From: a virus
Length of the DNA stretch: 22,945 bases
IMG/VR virus record: IMGVR_UViG_3300026304_000007
Coordinates: 1-22,945 of that record
Direction: 5' to 3' (one strand)
Below, piece by piece: positions 2,279 through 8,192 of this stretch. How positions within the stretch are numbered: position 1 is the first letter of the stretch; every line of letters starts with the position of its first letter. Under the pieces are notes generated by a model. That model had not been told where the DNA came from, did no database searches, and saw only the letters and a program-made list of their open reading frames with translations. Made by a program: the position numbers and the translations under genes.

Positions 2279-2393
2279 CCGTTCACTTGATTATCACCCT
2301 TTGTTGGTTGGCTGTTTTCTGGTCACGGCGGCCCTCGGCGGGTTGTTCATTTTGCTCTATCTGATCTCCTATTTTACCGGGTTTGAGCTTTGA
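2238..2393 (+). CDS. small one-TM protein, possible holin or antiholin partner
   Basis: This 51-aa ORF starts inside the 3' end of terL (ATG 2238; GTG 2256 and TTG 2301 are alternatives). It has an Arg-rich N-terminus (VRNRARGSRS) followed by one strong membrane span (VGCFLVTAALGG, FILLYLISYF), ending GFEL. Its TGA at 2391-2393 overlaps the TTG start of the hydrolase gene at 2390, which suggests coupled translation. Together with the two-TM protein after the hydrolase it looks like part of a lysis cassette. The start is uncertain and no family is recognised. Confidence 0.42.
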   Translation: MISPLPVRNRARGSRSLDYHPLLVGCFLVTAALGGLFILLYLISYFTGFEL

Positions 2394-3067
2394 TTAAGGA
2401 TTTAACCAAGATTGATTCGGTAGCCGGCGTTACGATTTATTCGGTTGCGGGTGAGCCCCAGTCTTTTATTTTCAAGGCTGGAATGACGATTGACGCGGAT
2501 GGCGCGCCGAATTGTTACGGCCCGAACAATTCCGGAATCGATTACACTGCCAATGGCGGCGACGATTCCGGGGGCGACTGGTGGGGTGGCCCGACCGATT
2601 CGAACGGGTACCCGATAAAGCAGAAAATCTATGATCCCTATCCCGGTTATTACGTGTCGGGGACCGCTCATACGAATCCTCAGTACGACTCTGAATCACC
2701 TTATTGTTATTTGGACTCGAGCTGCATTCCCTTTTTCGTTCTGCCTGGGCAACATGCTAACGGTGCGCGACTGGGAGATGTCGGATTGGTCTATAACGAG
2801 AAGACGGGTGACAATTGCTACGCGATTTACGGCGACATAGGCCCAAGCTCAAAGATTGGCGAGGGCTCGATGCGTCTTGCCCACGCTCTTAAGCTAGAAT
2901 CCAGTCCGAAAACTGGAGGCATCTCAAGCCACACAATTGTGTATCTGGTCTTTTTTGGAAGCGTTGGGAAATGGGTGCCACCGGCAAATTGGTTCGATGT
3001 TGCCAACACGCTGGTCAAGGCCTGGGGCGGTCTGGCTCGACTTAAGGAGATCGCCAAAAGCTTATGA
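2390..3067 (+). CDS. GH75-type chitosanase-like glycoside hydrolase, putative endolysin
   Basis: The 225-aa protein resembles glycoside hydrolase family 75, known from fungal and bacterial chitosanases. Visible family-like segments are DADGAPNCYGP (35-45), GGDWWGG (61-67), GYYVSGTA (86-93), IPFFVLPG (113-120), RLGDVGLVYN (127-136), and YAIYGDIGP followed by KIGEGS (144-160). Asp149 and Glu158, nine residues apart, match the spacing of the catalytic Asp/Glu pair of GH75. No signal peptide is seen, so export would need a holin. The start is TTG 2390, overlapping the stop of the preceding TM ORF; the domain begins near the N-terminus, so later starts would truncate it. Its ATGA overlaps the next, two-TM gene. 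A cell-wall-lysing role is inferred from context; true chitosanase activity, or a role in crossing a host glycan layer, is also possible. Confidence 0.82.
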   Translation: MIKDLTKIDSVAGVTIYSVAGEPQSFIFKAGMTIDADGAPNCYGPNNSGIDYTANGGDDSGGDWWGGPTDSNGYPIKQKIYDPYPGYYVSGTAHTNPQYDSESPYCYLDSSCIPFFVLPGQHANGARLGDVGLVYNEKTGDNCYAIYGDIGPSSKIGEGSMRLAHALKLESSPKTGGISSHTIVYLVFFGSVGKWVPPANWFDVANTLVKAWGGLARLKEIAKSL

Positions 3068-3255
3068 TGCTGGCGCTTATCCAATGGCTGGTCTTAGTGA
3101 TCGTGGTTTGCCTGCTGTACTGGGTGGTCTCGCAATTTGCGCCAGCGCCGATTCTGAAAGTCGTGTTGGTGGTCTGCGTGGTCATTGTGGTCTTGAGCCT
3201 GATCTTTTTGTTTTTGCCGTTGGCCGGCGTGCATTTAGGAGGGTATGGCCGCTAA
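3064..3255 (+). CDS. two-TM holin-like membrane protein
   Basis: The 63-aa product has two membrane spans, about residues 4-25 (ALIQWLVLVIVVCLLYWVV) and 33-57 (VVLVVCVVIVVLSLIFLFL), joined by the short turn APAPILK and ending GGYGR. This size and topology fit class II holins and common small phage membrane proteins. The ATG overlaps the hydrolase stop (ATGA 3064-3067). An AGGAGGG at 3237-3243, inside its 3' end, precedes the ATG of the broken portal 5' end at 3245. Holin function is inferred from topology and adjacency to the hydrolase. Confidence 0.68.
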   Translation: MMLALIQWLVLVIVVCLLYWVVSQFAPAPILKVVLVVCVVIVVLSLIFLFLPLAGVHLGGYGR

Positions 3256-3358
3256 CCCCGACGTTGTCGATACCACCAAGCCCGAAGCGATCGTTCCGGA
3301 CACGGCGACTCATGACTTTTTCCCTTCTCGGCGGCCCAAAGCGGCTGGAGATTTGTGA
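3245..3358 (+). pseudogene. truncated 5' end of a portal gene, left by HNH insertion
   Basis: ATG 3245 begins MAANPDVVDTTKPEAIVPDT, which aligns without gaps to the N-terminus of the intact portal at 3952 (MAENTELLDLDKPDAKLPDT). About 10 of the first 22 residues are identical and several others are conservative, while the DNA has diverged. Similarity stops at about codon 22 (3310). The frame then runs into DNA antisense to the HNH gene and stops at TGA 3356-3358 after 37 codons. AGGAGGG lies just upstream with very tight spacing. I read this as the start of the resident portal gene, cut off by insertion of the HNH gene and a foreign portal copy. Confidence 0.68.
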
Positions 3359-3911
3359 AATGAAAGCATTTTCGAAGCTCTGTTTGGTCCGAGAGGTCAA
3401 AGCTGTTGCAAGGCCGAATGTGATCGACGTGCCAACCGTGTCGTCCATAGTTCTCCCAGGTCATGCCGGGCTTGAATTGGATTTCGAGCCACGCTCTAAG
3501 GAAGACTCCTTCGCATCCACACAAGTTGCTTATTCGTGCAACTTTGGCTTTTCCAGCATGGCGGATGATGAGATTTATTCGACGACGACATTGTTCGAGA
3601 AACCTGTAAAGAGGATCGACGCCCAATCTTCTATGTCGTCTTTCAGCGGCTTGTTTGTTTCTTTTTTCTCTATTTTGCCAATGATATTTGCGCGAACTAA
3701 TGCATTTTTTCTCTTTAGTTTTGTCGTAATATTCGCGCTGCTGATTACGGATGGTTTCTTTATTTTTGGCGTATCGTTCGCGCTCTTTTGCTGCCCTGTG
3801 CTCTTTATTGTTGTCGCGATATTCCTTATATGCGTTTGGATGCCTTGTTTTAAAACGAACATAGACCAGATGGCGGACTCTTCGCTTATGTTCGATCGAG
3901 ACTTTTCGCAT
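3252..3911 (-). CDS. HNH homing endonuclease
   Basis: The 219-aa protein on the minus strand has a highly basic N-terminal half rich in Lys/Arg/Glu/Tyr repeats (DNA binding; KNKETIRNQQREYYDK). A C-terminal HNH module has GWHVDHIRPCNSF (H161, D163, H164) and FTNLQPLWA with N187; a GCEG segment near 132 precedes it. Such free-standing HNH enzymes cut DNA near their own insertion site and spread by homologous repair. The last ~18 residues (SPCPERSLRAWWYRQRRG) are read from DNA antisense to the portal remnant, so the original stop seems lost at the junction near 3310. Transcription opposes all neighbours and diverges from the portal start 40 bp away. Confidence 0.88.
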   Translation of the reverse strand: MRKVSIEHKRRVRHLVYVRFKTRHPNAYKEYRDNNKEHRAAKERERYAKNKETIRNQQREYYDKTKEKKCISSRKYHWQNREKRNKQAAERRHRRLGVDPLYRFLEQCRRRINLIIRHAGKAKVARISNLCGCEGVFLRAWLEIQFKPGMTWENYGRHGWHVDHIRPCNSFDLSDQTELRKCFHFTNLQPLWAAEKGKSHESPCPERSLRAWWYRQRRG

Positions 3912-3951
3912 CAGAATCTATATCGACTAAACCCGGCCATAGATTAACTAA
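3311..3951. mobile_element. inserted HNH cassette between portal remnant and intact portal
   Basis: The insert is bounded on the left by loss of similarity between the portal remnant (3245-3310) and the intact portal, and on the right by the start codon of the intact portal at 3952. It is AT-richer than the terminase region. The right limit is arbitrary because the intact portal 5' part probably arrived with it. On the + strand, ATG 3360 lies one base after the remnant stop and opens a frame in exact register with the HNH codons that runs to TAA 3945-3947, four bases before the portal ATG. Confidence 0.6.
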
Positions 3952-5901
3952 ATGGCAGAGAATACAGAACTACTTGATTTAGATAAACCGGACGCCAAGC
4001 TGCCGGATACCGAGACTACGCCTGTCATGGAACCGATGATCTCGGTGGACGTGTCCGATCGGCTACTCCGCCAGATTCAAAGGCGCATTTTTCCAACTGA
4101 CCTTGAATCGATTCTCCTTAGCGCCCAAGTTGGCGATTTGTGGTGGAAAAATCAGCTTTGGAGTTTAATGGTTCAGACTTGGCCGCGGCTCGCAACTAAC
4201 CTTGGTAAACTCAAACAAGCTGTTAGTTCGATGGAATATGACGTTAAGCCATTTGCTGAAAAAGGTGAAAAACCGACTAATAGTGCGATCGAAAAAGCTG
4301 ATTTTGTCGAGGACGCTCTATTAGGAATGCACGGGGACCTGGCGGCACAGGAACACGATTTTCAGCAAACCTTAGAGGACGTGGTCGATGCTTTGGTCTC
4401 AGGCTTTTTCGTGGCTGAGATTTATTGGGAAGTTAGAAATGGCGGCATGGTGCCGCAATGTACTCGTTGGACTCCTAGTCGGTACTGGCGCTTTCCATAT
4501 GTTTTGGATCAGAAAGACGAATTGCTATTAAATCCGTCAGGAATGTTAGGGGGTACTCAATTATTTCCGTTCCCGGAATACAAATTTATTCGAGCTATCA
4601 AGCAAACTCACGCTGATCACCCGGTCTTCTCCTGTCCGATGGATTGCTTAACCAGCTGGTGGTTAGCTTCTCGGTTTGGGCTCGAATGGTTTATGACCTT
4701 CGCCCAGCTGTTTGGGATTCCACGCCGTGTCGCGTATTATAGCCCCGGCGACGATATCACGTACCAAAAGCTGGTTCAGATGATGCGCCAGAGCGCGGCG
4801 GCGACCTGGGGCGTTTATCCTAAAGGCACACAAGTTGAGGACCAAGCCGCAGCAGGCTCGACTGGCGGTCATTTGCCGCAGGAACGCTTAATCGATGAAG
4901 CCGACAAAGTTTGCGATATCATGTTGCTTGGTCAGACCCTCACAACTGAAGTGCATGAAAGTGGCGGCAATCGTGCCTTAGGTCAGGTACATCGGCGTGT
5001 TCAGGATGAGGTCATGATTGCAGCGGCCAACTTTGTAGCCAAGATTTTTAATACACAGGTTATTCCCGGCATTCTTCAGTATAACTGGGGAAATATCTCT
5101 GAGATTCCGATTTTAGAACCTGTGGTCAATAGTCCGGTTGATCTGTTTAATCTGGCTCAGGCTTTAAAGATCATTGGTGTTGACATGAAACTTCCATTGA
5201 AAGCTGAAGAGGTCTACACCCGTCTTGAATTTACCCAGCCCGATCCAGATGAAGGAAATCTCTACGAGCCACCCGCAGCACCGATTGCGCCACCGCCCCC
5301 ATTTAGCGCACAGCCGCAACCTAACGGCACTAGACCAGAACCGGCTGGAGCGCCTAATGGCAGCAAGGAACCAGGGGCTAAGCCTAATATCGTGGAGCGC
5401 GTTGGGGCTGCTGGGCTCGGGGACGCTGACTGTTGCGATCCTACTTTTGATGATGGCGATGGAAACGCGGTCCATGCTGCTGCTCGCAAGGTGAGTTTCG
5501 CGCTCAATTACGGCGAGGAACCGGAACCGGGCGAGGTCTTACGGTTTTTGGAGCATGTCGAGGCGCGTGAACATGGTGTAACGACGGTGATTGCGCCGAA
5601 GCAACTCGATCGTTCGCCGGCGGAGGCGGCAGCGTCGCATGACACTGGCCAATACTTCCGGGAGAATGCGGCGACAATTAAGGGCGTAAAATGGCGATCG
5701 ATACTCGACGATAGAACTACTCAAGAATGCCGCGACTTGCATAACAAGCGGTGGACCTACCCGGATCTGAAACCGATCGGGCACGAGCTCGAATTTCCTG
5801 ATTTCCCGCCGATCAAGTATAACTGCCGCTCGAGTGTGATGCCGGTCCTGAAGACGTGGCCACAGATCCAGCAGTGGCTGAAAGGACTTTTTAAGCGATG
5901 A
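3952..5901 (+). CDS. portal protein (Mu gp29/DUF935 type) fused to a MuF-like C-terminal domain
   Basis: The portal forms the dodecameric DNA entry ring at the head vertex. Residues ~45-430 of this 649-aa protein resemble the Mu gp29-like DUF935 portal family (VGDLWWKNQLWSLM, WTPSRYWRFPY, TSWWLASRFGLEWFMTFAQL, FGIPRRVAYY). A Pro-rich linker follows at ~430-490. The C-terminal part (~575-635) resembles the Mu F minor head protein: GVKWRSILDDRTTQECRDLH, then KYNCRSSVMPVL. These two functions are separate genes in Mu (gp29, gp30). There is no SD before ATG 3952, which lies 40 bp from the divergent HNH gene. Parts of the first ~1.25 kb are AT-richer than the 3' part. Its stop overlaps the next ATG. 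Confidence 0.88.
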   Translation: MAENTELLDLDKPDAKLPDTETTPVMEPMISVDVSDRLLRQIQRRIFPTDLESILLSAQVGDLWWKNQLWSLMVQTWPRLATNLGKLKQAVSSMEYDVKPFAEKGEKPTNSAIEKADFVEDALLGMHGDLAAQEHDFQQTLEDVVDALVSGFFVAEIYWEVRNGGMVPQCTRWTPSRYWRFPYVLDQKDELLLNPSGMLGGTQLFPFPEYKFIRAIKQTHADHPVFSCPMDCLTSWWLASRFGLEWFMTFAQLFGIPRRVAYYSPGDDITYQKLVQMMRQSAAATWGVYPKGTQVEDQAAAGSTGGHLPQERLIDEADKVCDIMLLGQTLTTEVHESGGNRALGQVHRRVQDEVMIAAANFVAKIFNTQVIPGILQYNWGNISEIPILEPVVNSPVDLFNLAQALKIIGVDMKLPLKAEEVYTRLEFTQPDPDEGNLYEPPAAPIAPPPPFSAQPQPNGTRPEPAGAPNGSKEPGAKPNIVERVGAAGLGDADCCDPTFDDGDGNAVHAAARKVSFALNYGEEPEPGEVLRFLEHVEAREHGVTTVIAPKQLDRSPAEAAASHDTGQYFRENAATIKGVKWRSILDDRTTQECRDLHNKRWTYPDLKPIGHELEFPDFPPIKYNCRSSVMPVLKTWPQIQQWLKGLFKR

Positions 5902-6044
5902 ACGATCTTAACCGAGCAGCCGCCGATGAGGCGATGGGTCCGTTGATTCCGAACTCATCATTAGATCGATGTATCCCAAAGTTGGCCCGTGGGATTGAAG
6001 ACATCGCCTCGGGTTGCTCGGTTAACTTTTTTAACAGTCTATGA
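5898..6044 (+). CDS. hypothetical small protein (48 aa)
   Basis: ATG 5898 overlaps the portal stop (ATGA) and its own TGA at 6042-6044 overlaps the next ATG at 6041, so both ends fit a translationally coupled operon. The product starts MNDLNRAAADEAMGPLIP and has two Cys and a mixed composition. No family is recognised. Support comes from the exact tiling between two genes. Confidence 0.5.
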   Translation: MNDLNRAAADEAMGPLIPNSSLDRCIPKLARGIEDIASGCSVNFFNSL

Positions 6045-6247
6045 TGACGCGAGCCGAAAAGCTTTTCAATATCCGGGCCCAGGTCCAAAAGGCTGCGAGC
6101 GACATTGACCACGGTGACACCTACGGCGCTTGCTTAGCTTTGGGCGATGCGCTCTCGGCGGTGCTTGAATTTTTGGAGGAAGAGATGCCCGAGAAGGTGT
6201 TACCGGCGCTCCACGCCGAATCAATCAAAAACAAGGTTAAGAAATGA
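6041..6247 (+). CDS. hypothetical small helical protein (68 aa)
   Basis: The product starts MMTRAEKLFNIRAQVQKAAS, continues with a Leu/Glu-rich helix (LSAVLEFLEEEMPEKVL) and ends in a basic tail (SIKNKVKK). It looks all-helical. It overlaps the upstream small gene by four bases and its stop overlaps the ATG of the truncated protease gene (6244, ATGA). Start at 6041 or 6044. Function unknown; the position between portal and protease suggests a head-assembly accessory role. Confidence 0.6.
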   Translation: MMTRAEKLFNIRAQVQKAASDIDHGDTYGACLALGDALSAVLEFLEEEMPEKVLPALHAESIKNKVKK

Positions 6248-6318
6248 AAATTATTCAGGCGATTGAGAAACGTGAAGACGTTAGTCCGCAAGAAGGCACC
6301 CGAGAGTATGGTGACGGC
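6244..6318 (+). pseudogene. truncated 5' end of the protease/scaffold gene, left by HNH insertion
   Basis: ATG 6244 begins MKIIQAIEKREDVSPQEG and continues to EYGDG at about codon 25. It aligns with the start of the intact gene at 6891 ([19 protein letters not shown] to KYGKG), with about 16 identities over 26 columns and one gap. Similarity stops at 6318, exactly where the HNH stop codon (6319-6321, minus strand) begins. The + strand frame does not stop there: it stays open through the DNA antisense to the HNH gene to TGA 6892-6894, overlapping the ATG of the intact gene. I interpret 6244-6318 as the resident gene's remnant and the rest of the open frame as antisense. Confidence 0.75.
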
Positions 6319-6864
6319 TCATTTTTTAACTCGGGTATAAGGTTTTCTGTTAGGCGATTTTTTGCGCCTGTTGTTGGCCTGTTCCTTGTCGGTAGCCCAA
6401 CGGCAGTTCTCAGGCGAATACGATCCGTTATTATCAATGCGTTCAAGGCTCATATCCGAAGGACGCGGACCCATGTCTGCAAGGAAATCTTCAAACGAAT
6501 CCCGCCAACGATTACAAACCGTAATTCCACGTGCTCCGTATTTGTAGTAGCCGGAATGGTTTTGATTGTGACATCGGCCTTTCATAGAGCACCAAGTACG
6601 GTATTCAGGCGTTGTCTTCCCGCGACTGGCTTGTCCATGCGTCCGTTGGACTTGGCTAGTGACTTCCCGTTGATAACAACCGCAAGAAATGGTTTTGCCG
6701 CGTCGGAGTTGGTCACTGGTTATCCATTTGAGTTTCCCGCAATCGCATTCGCACGGCCAAACGGCTCTTCTATTAATCGTTTCACGCCATTGATGAGGCC
6801 CGATTACAATCAGTCTGCCGAATTTCTGTCCTTCCAGATCAATGAAGCGTTTCAGTTGTCCCAT
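6319..6864 (-). CDS. HNH homing endonuclease with zinc-binding Cys pairs
   Basis: The 181-aa minus-strand protein starts at ATG 6864 ([20 protein letters not shown]), the usual start of this phage HNH family; TTG at 6888 would add eight residues. CECDCG (C38, C40, C42) and SCGC (C61, C63) look like a zinc-binding site. The nuclease core is [16 protein letters not shown] (D144, N153), preceded by [12 protein letters not shown]. The basic tail ends TRVKK. It belongs to a different HNH subgroup from the one at 3252-3911 but has the same orientation and the same relation to its target gene: 3' end against a truncated N-terminus, 5' end diverging from the restored start. Confidence 0.9.
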
Positions 6865-6890
6865 AAGTCTAATATACAACGTCAGCAAAT
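6319..6890. mobile_element. inserted HNH cassette between protease remnant and intact protease gene
   Basis: The left junction is sharp: similarity between remnant and intact gene ends at 6318 and the HNH stop codon starts at 6319. The right edge is placed at the new start codon 6891, though the intact 5' part probably came with the cassette. The insert therefore holds one HNH gene plus about 26 bp of divergent spacer. Confidence 0.65.
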
Positions 6891-8192
6891 ATGAAATCTT
6901 TAGTAGAGGCTATCGCAAAAAGGGAAGATGTATCGCCCAAGGAGGGAGAGGGCAAATACGGCAAAGGCGTCACTTTTGCCGTTGAGAAGAATAAGAAGTA
7001 TCCGCTGGACACCGAAGCCCATGCCAGGGCCGCGCTTAGTTACTGGGGAATGCCGAAGAACCGAGCCAAGTACTCGGCCGAGGATCAGAAGACGATCGGT
7101 GGCAAGATTCGCGCGGCGGCTAAGAAGTTCGGGATCGAGACATCGGACGGCGGCGACAAGACCGAGAGCGCGCTGGTTTATGCCGCAGCCACGGTTGATC
7201 TAGAGGGTGAAACGCCTCCGTCGATTATGTATATGCCGAAAGGCGACTGGAAGATTTCGCCGGCTGTTCATGGCAAAGCAAAAATCGTTTCAATCAAAGT
7301 GGACGAGACTGTTGCCGCAACCTTGCAGCAGGATTTGACTAAACGGCTTGCCGAGCCACCGCGCCCATATGCTGGTTTTGATCATCAACCGGGCTCGGCT
7401 AGTTTTATTCCTAAGGCGTTTCGATGGGACGCTGAACAAGGCGTAATGTTGGACGTTGATTGGACCAAGCCAGGCGAGGAGGCGGTCAAAGGCCGTGGTC
7501 ATTCATATTTTTCGCCCACGTTCCTACTCAGTGACAAGGGCGACGTTGCCGGACTCCCGAGCACCGGTGAAATTGGGTCACTGACTAATAATCCCGCTTT
7601 TCGACGGATACAGAAAATCGCAGCGTCGGCGGATGACGATGAAGGAGAAGAAAGCAAAATGGTAAAATTGACAGATAAATTAGTGGAGCTTGAGGTGATC
7701 ACCGCCGAACAAGCGGCGGATGCGGATGAGGAACTGCTTGTGCGCGCGGTCACCGGATTACACGAGGCACTGGCAACGGTGCAGGCGGCTAACGCGCGGC
7801 TGATCAGCGAGAACACGGCCTTGGCGGCCAAGGCGATCGAGGTGCAGAAGGCTGAAGCGCTCTCGATTGTGCAAGCGGCAATTGCCGAGGGCAAGATTCC
7901 GGCCAAAGTGCAATCGGCGATTGATTTCTGGACGGCGCAACTGACCTCCAATCCGGAACAGGCTAAGAAAGCGCTAGCCACATTGCATCCCGCGCCGGTC
8001 TTGGAAAAAATGGTCGACGTCAAAATGAGCGACACTAAACGGGTCGTTGGCGGCCAGAGCGAGGCAGACTTAGTGCAAGCCCAGCATTTGGTGATTCATG
8101 AAATCCAGGAGGCGCATCCGAATTTGAGCTATACGGACGCGTTCAATAAAGCTAAGCGGGAGCACCCGGATGTCTTCCCGGTCGAAGCGTAG
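6891..8192 (+). CDS. prohead protease/scaffold (Mu I-like) with N-terminal DUF6582-like domain
   Basis: This 433-aa protein probably processes and scaffolds the prohead. Residues 1-75 resemble the small DUF6582-type domain ([40 protein letters not shown]). Residues ~95-240 resemble Mu I-like protease: PYAGFDHQ with D164/H165, [11 protein letters not shown] with H204/S205/S208, and [12 protein letters not shown]. From ~257 onward the protein is Ala/Glu-rich and helical (scaffold-like coiled coil). An internal in-frame ATG (7659, residue 257) has an SD-like AAGGAG at 7642-7647 and may give a separate scaffold. Catalytic residues are suggested, not proven. A truncated copy of its start lies at 6244. 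Confidence 0.85.
7642..7661 (+). promoter_or_regulatory. candidate internal ribosome binding site and start for a scaffold product
   Basis: AAGGAG at 7642-7647 with further purines lies before the in-frame ATG 7659-7661 ([11 protein letters not shown]), at the boundary between the protease part and the helical part. A 177-aa scaffold would result. Phages such as lambda (C/Nu3) make scaffold from an internal start in the same way. The 11-base gap from AAGGAG to ATG is somewhat long. Confidence 0.4.

Follow-up and report, generated by a model that had tools for sequence, protein, structure and literature searches.

Mobile open reading frames (ORFs) in the mitochondria of Allomyces and Glomus bring with them a foreign gene end, so that their arrival creates a hybrid gene and leaves the native end of that gene behind (PMC3630166). 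When these hybrids are compared with a relative, the native ends show 91-98% nucleotide identity and the foreign ends 64-81% (PMC3630166). Such hybrids, described for Allomyces macrogynus atp6 and for Glomus atp6, atp9, cox2, and nad3, are the closest known case (PMC3630166) to an arrangement found here in a phage fragment of 22,945 bases held in IMG/VR (IMGVR_UViG_3300026304_000007; the window). In the window, two unrelated HNH endonuclease genes, HNH1 and HNH2, lie at the beginnings of the portal and head maturation protease genes, respectively, and we propose that they are probably free-standing homing endonuclease genes that carry a replacement gene end in place of an intron or intein. The mitochondrial hybrids and the window have in common an endonuclease gene within a conserved gene, a foreign end joined in frame, and a native stub beyond it (PMC3630166). 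In the mitochondrial hybrids the C terminus is replaced and the enzymes are of the LAGLIDADG or GIY-YIG type (PMC3630166), whereas the phage cases also include replaced N termini and mostly involve HNH enzymes, those in the window being antisense. The likeness to Allomyces atp6, to which a first-pass annotation of the sequence had pointed, is a real one (PMC3630166).

The cited passages of the phage literature cover free-standing nucleases, split genes, and nuclease-bounded exchange (PMC2988022, PMC10448857, PMC12724721). As reviewed there, experiments in T4 show that one-sided homology leads to illegitimate repair on the other side (PMC2988022). The Seg and Mob systems of T4-like phages resemble the window in that HNH or GIY-YIG genes lie beside essential genes and flanking markers are co-converted; they differ in being mostly intergenic, with mobE (Aeh1) and mobA splitting their targets, and the cited passages of that review make no mention of a leftover stub together with a complete replacement end (PMC2988022). 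The homing endonuclease gene islands (HEG-islands) of Barth et al. (2023) likewise place nuclease genes at exchange boundaries near packaging, capsid, and replication genes, but their boundaries lie between gene blocks, and stubs and hybrid genes go unmentioned in the cited portions (PMC10448857). F-CphI is described, in the cited part of its report, with an Endo VII catalytic motif, and relatives of HNH1 match PHROG endonuclease VII, a likeness by description (PMC6083498). We found no phage precedent for the combination of stub and replacement end in the open-access literature, which is no proof of priority.

Each HNH gene in the window is antisense and separates a short start-codon fragment (stub) from a complete gene, which opens at 3952 (portal) or 6891 (protease), as the first-pass annotation had reported (Table 1). 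Misassembly is unlikely, because a second IMG/VR record (L002; records are cited by such numbers) is identical over its first 11,005 bases bar one mismatch, with the caveat that L002 may come from the same sample. The similarity between stubs and intact starts also held, the counts being 11/22 residues for the portal and 15/26 for the protease and not the 10/22 and 16/26 first given; at the nucleotide (nt) level, the portal stub matches the window's own intact portal start at 38/66 positions. In a comparison of the two flanks of each of 266 distinct genes of the HNH1 and HNH2 families, taken from viral contigs, the stub/intact flank scores were 80 (portal) and 59 (protease); among 8000 mismatched pairings, the 95% and 99% levels were 36 and 42, and the highest score was 59. 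Position 3310, 66 nt past the start codon, is the last of the portal stub, and the base after it is already part of HNH1. The HNH1 frame continues across the stub, and its stop codon and last ~19 residues are therefore antisense portal; conservation among HNH1 relatives stops at residue 199, and the junction falls at residue ~200. The protease stub is present as first annotated, but its match to uninvaded relatives stops at ~6316 and not at 6318; the HNH2 stop codon occupies 6319-6321.

IMG/VR searches using the portal and protease yielded five uninvaded relatives (L003, L004, L005, L012, and L159, here called residents), all of which have one start per gene and no HNH gene at either site. In tblastn searches every close relative searched had one N terminus per gene, so that no relative lacking the HNH genes was seen to carry both a fragment and a full gene, a combination that would have refuted the reading of the first-pass annotation. 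The portal stub matches L005 and L012 at 22/22 residues and 63/66 nt, L004 at 59/66 nt, and L003 at 56/66 nt, such that its amino acid identity is 86-100% to four residents vs 50% to the window's own intact start. Residents vary at the portal start, since the L159 N terminus differs from the stub (32/66 nt). The protease stub is 83% identical in amino acid sequence to all five residents and 61% to the window's own intact start, and at the nt level it matches residents at 53-58/73 positions vs 47/73 for L011. Both stubs are closest to resident starts, and their upstream neighbors are resident too; the stubs are therefore the original gene starts. At both sites, the native gene end is thus kept beyond the endonuclease gene.

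The genes that follow are mosaic. The order in the window is terminase, Mu-type portal, head maturation protease, and major head protein; the portal has a Portal_Mu domain (E 4e-62) and a C-terminal Mu F-like domain, and the protease combines DUF6582 with a Mu-like protease domain. Up to about codon 453 the window portal shows 54-79% nt identity to the residents and thereafter mostly 75-95%, whereas residents are 75-93% identical among themselves along the whole gene. A changepoint was placed after codon 453 (support 448-465), matched by 0/2000 permutations, and before it the GC content at third codon positions (GC3) is 0.487 in the window vs 0.72-0.75 in four residents and L011. In the protease the changepoint lies after codon 84 (support 77-113; 0/2000 permutations match), although the switch could be as late as codon ~230, because the residents form two allele types over codons ~110-230; over codons ~264-324 the amino acid identity is 85-100%. 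Phylogenetic trees agree with this division. The 5' part of the protease groups the window with L011, L013, and L008 (support 99/99) and the 3' part (codons 232-433) with L003 (82/83). In the portal 5' tree the residents form a clade that excludes the window (99/99), and in the 3' tree the window is nearest the residents (86% to L003) and far from others, with long branches and weak support. Both switches fall between domains: in the portal, Portal_Mu spans 69-425 and the Mu F-like domain 560-630, and in the protease, DUF6582 spans 7-86 and the protease domain 175-313. Uninvaded alleles and a breakpoint within each gene, the two things that the first-pass annotation had proposed looking for, are thus both present, and a foreign end is joined in frame to a resident gene body in both genes. 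Together with the resident stubs, the mosaic genes imply that each event comprises a resident stub, an HNH gene, and a donor start on a resident body, which supports the recombination model of the first-pass annotation as far as its product is concerned.

These data also bear on explanations in which nothing foreign replaced the gene start. If the stub were exon 1 and the HNH region were spliced from the RNA as an intron or similar insert, removal of 3311-4017 would indeed join stub and gene body in frame, but the downstream gene has a complete start of its own and is foreign for 453 codons, as an exon would not be, and nothing in the window reaches Rfam thresholds for an intron of group I or group II; splicing is a very improbable account. 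If the gene start had been duplicated in tandem and an HNH gene then inserted between the two copies, the N terminus would likewise be present twice, but this is just as hard to credit, given that foreign sequence makes up 453 codons of the intact copy and that this copy agrees with the stub at only 38/66 nt, whereas the stub matches uninvaded relatives. An intein was rejected, since both HNH genes lie antisense and the host gene begins anew from a start codon of its own.

We suggest instead that each enzyme would have nicked or cut the resident gene 66-73 nt past its start codon. As the product shows, the gene-body side was repaired with the DNA of a divergent relative, resident sequence resuming deep in the gene (~codon 453 and ~codon 84), and the upstream half of the break survives as the stub that now abuts the HNH coding sequence. 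The upstream side would have been joined at or near the break, in keeping with the illegitimate repair seen in T4 when homology is one-sided (PMC2988022). The HNH gene and a complete donor gene start thus entered together, and the essential gene kept one full reading frame. The divergent donor start would presumably also protect the new allele from the enzyme. Cleavage and resistance, like the direction of transfer, are inferences.

HNH1 belongs to the EndoVII-like HNH group, whose phage members are annotated as endonuclease VII; of its annotated relatives, gp07 of Verrucomicrobia phage P8625 is the nearest. HNH2 falls within PHROG 374, a family of HNH proteins with >1000 phage records; it most likely starts at ATG 6864, and its ORF could open at TTG 6888. 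The catalytic motifs are intact in both (W-H-x-D-H and N-x-Q-P-L in HNH1; R-I-D...Y-x-x-x-N-C-x-W in HNH2), and both proteins are predicted to cut DNA. AlphaFold models were fairly confident (pLDDT, the predicted local distance difference test, 82 for HNH1 and 87 for HNH2). Foldseek searches of the PDB with the two models gave no significant match, PacI (3ldy) appearing for HNH2 at an E value of only 2.2, and a sequence search of solved structures found no homologue of either protein; the HNH assignment accordingly derives from sequence. In L015 (4542-4814), a relative of HNH2 lies antisense directly upstream of a distant portal gene, with no stub, a possible intergenic, donor-like state.

The same layout occurs outside the window in L375, L115, L386, L410, L343, L472, and cultured Verrucomicrobia phage P8625. 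These seven cases span four nuclease types (EndoVII-like HNH, two other HNH families, and GIY-YIG-like), so that the recurring layout suggested by the first-pass annotation extends, among inspected cases, to other nucleases. The stubs are ~14-28 codons long and lie at the start or the end of the target gene. In L375, the stub MNYHEFLARKRIVDP is followed by a PHROG-374 HNH gene and then by a helicase-like gene beginning MKSYHEFLEKKRIIDP; in L410, the nuclease is an EndoVII-like HNH and the stub matches at 14/19 residues. Three cases came from the control scan described below: P8625; L115, with an HNH of PHROG 99 (16/27 residues); and L386, whose nuclease matches no PHROG and is GIY-YIG-like by sequence (13/23 residues). 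In the window it is the N terminus that is replaced, and in L343, L472, and P8625 the C terminus. In L343 the end of a DUF7484 gene, DKESYYRHIKLTSSGV, is followed by a PHROG-374 HNH gene and the stub DKESFYRHIKLTSSGV (33/48 nt); L472 has a terminase end, an EndoVII-like HNH gene, and a stub; and in P8625 a terminase end is repeated directly after gp07 (9/14 residues). Stubs adjoin the coding sequence of the nuclease with few if any additional bases in between, and in L375, L115, and L386, where a sense nuclease gene accompanies a replaced start, the nuclease stop codon overlaps the start codon of the intact gene (ATGA). The antisense layout noted by the first-pass annotation holds for the window but not as a general pattern; the outside nucleases run in the direction of the gene, and antisense orientation is therefore not essential. 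Which copy is native could be decided for the window only, because relatives of the genes in the other cases are too distant: those of the L343, L472, P8625, and L386 genes are mostly at 21-46% identity, and those of L386 reach 65% with unrelated N termini.

Two further observations concern these genomes. In L410 (3569-5833), the gene beside the HNH gene has a Hint/intein-like segment (Pfam Intein_splicing, E 5e-7, below the Pfam cut-off), and this gene may therefore hold two kinds of mobile element. L047 was not counted, having a weak fit (12/19 residues) and no relative that we could find; at 5556-6857 it carries MKKNIDTKNRIVDYWDIST before and MKKNIDIANRVVEYSNVES after an EndoVII-like HNH gene, whose ORF has an in-frame stop near the 3' end.

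The closeness of stub and nuclease raises a variant of the proposed mechanism that differs in the origin of the stub-side junction. Donors may already have had the order stub-HNH-gene, the whole unit being moved by two-sided homologous repair and the junction having been made once, long ago. This preformed cassette is quite possible, if somewhat short of probable, and must be taken as an equally serious reading, with our confidence in the two overlapping. The tight fit slightly favors it, as chance joining might leave spacers, and the stop codon of the nuclease even lies inside the stub in window HNH1, L343, and P8625; on the other side, no donor with the stub-HNH-gene layout was found, and the portal stub is wholly resident, so that any left crossover must lie at the junction or within the stub. 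A wholly resident portal stub fits either origin of the junction.

Several results weigh against homing with a replacement gene end. We found no donor phage with an HNH gene beside a matching gene start in scans of IMG/VR and GTDB with a profile of portal residues 1-450 and in searches with HNH1 and HNH2 of IMG/VR and annotated phages. The protease breakpoint is blurred by the differences among residents over codons ~110-230. HNH2 has 16 residues beyond its last conserved motif, compared with 45-76 in 29/29 aligned relatives, so that its targeting segment may be missing and its full activity is in doubt; one relative, L116, is equally short. Finally, with a strict filter the signature was seen at 4/260 HNH genes, one of them a tandem HNH pair (L326), vs 8/1291 other genes, a difference that is not significant (Fisher p 0.13).

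The control genes behind this comparison were screened blind to function, P8625 being included on purpose and not at random, and in a random sample of 100 control genes no nuclease family, of those listed, had more than two members. Their eight hits comprised three nucleases (one of them P8625), four tandem paralogues (L089, L109, L144, and L047:4227, all rejected), and one repeat artefact (L300, rejected). The strict test is nonsignificant partly because the filter drops the window portal pair, L375, and L472, and the claim of recurrence therefore rests on the inspected cases; enrichment of the signature at nucleases over non-nuclease genes is suggestive but short of statistical proof. Nonsignificance would suit a scenario in which ordinary mosaicism brought an HNH gene beside a foreign gene start and the nuclease played no role, as would the mosaic nature of phage genomes, visible here in the variable slot upstream of a small ORF (orf63) and in other genes. 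We consider such a passenger role unlikely, because the same geometry is found at two unrelated HNH genes in one genome and in seven further clear cases with four nuclease types, and because nucleases made up 3/8 hits of a function-blind scan, even with one included on purpose.

Table 1. Features of the window at and around the two HNH genes
Feature	Coordinates	Strand	Basis or remarks
Small membrane-type ORF (orf63), resident flank	3064..3255	+	96-100% amino acid identity to L003, L005, L012
Portal stub, codons 1-22 of the original resident portal	3245..3310	+	MAANPDVVDTTKPEAIVPDTAT
HNH1, EndoVII-like HNH endonuclease (predicted)	3252..3911	-	Invariant HNH core W-H-x-D-H...N-x-Q-P-L
Portal, donor-derived part (codons 1 to ~453, whole Portal_Mu domain)	3952..5311	+	Identity, GC3, changepoint
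Portal, resident-derived part (linker and Mu F-like domain)	5312..5901	+	Mostly 75-95% nt identity to residents
Small ORF (orf68) upstream of protease stub, resident flank	6041..6247	+	97% amino acid identity to L003, 93% to L005
Protease stub, codons 1 to ~24 of the original resident protease	6244..6318	+	MKIIQAIEKREDVSPQEGTREYGDG
HNH2, PHROG 374-type HNH (predicted), with CxC...SCGC zinc-ribbon-like motif	6319..6864	-	phrog_374, E 6.5e-63
Protease, donor-derived part (codons 1 to ~84, DUF6582 domain)	6891..7143, could reach ~7580	+	Changepoint, 5' tree
Protease, remainder, mostly resident-derived	7144..8192	+	3' tree; amino acid identity

Around these features, a GH75 chitosanase-like gene (Pfam E 1.4e-6) occupies window positions 2390-3067, between terL and orf63; its slot is variable, since L003 keeps the gene (70% amino acid identity) and L012, L005, and L004 have others. 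L003 has, at 4937-5889, incomplete tandem copies of orf68 and of the C-terminal end of the portal, situated after the portal gene and before the intact orf68. The intact starts at 3952 and 6891 have no obvious Shine-Dalgarno sequence and lie 26-40 nt from the divergent HNH start; portal starts of relatives have none either, a hint that start contexts in the host are A-rich. DUF6582 (window 6891-7150) is also found in protease-region genes of L017-L031, alone, internally, or at the gene end, and looks like a freely exchanged module; no HNH gene was seen upstream of the DUF6582-bearing proteases in these phages.

It is an even call whether phages possess, alongside introns and inteins, a third and general kind of homing element, in which a nuclease gene packed tightly against a cut-resistant replacement end would move with it as a unit and hybridize essential genes at either terminus, with several HNH families and GIY-YIG enzymes adopting this route independently. 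On the reading proposed here, the window shows that a selfish nuclease gene can reside in an essential gene without splicing, by bringing a replacement end, and this would account for one way in which phages come by hybrid structural proteins. The process leaves a readable scar, the short stub beside the nuclease gene. Since the stub is resident sequence at the presumed cut site, it predicts the target of an uncharacterized enzyme to within a few bases; uninvaded relatives are ready-made substrates, and one instance lies in a cultured phage, P8625.

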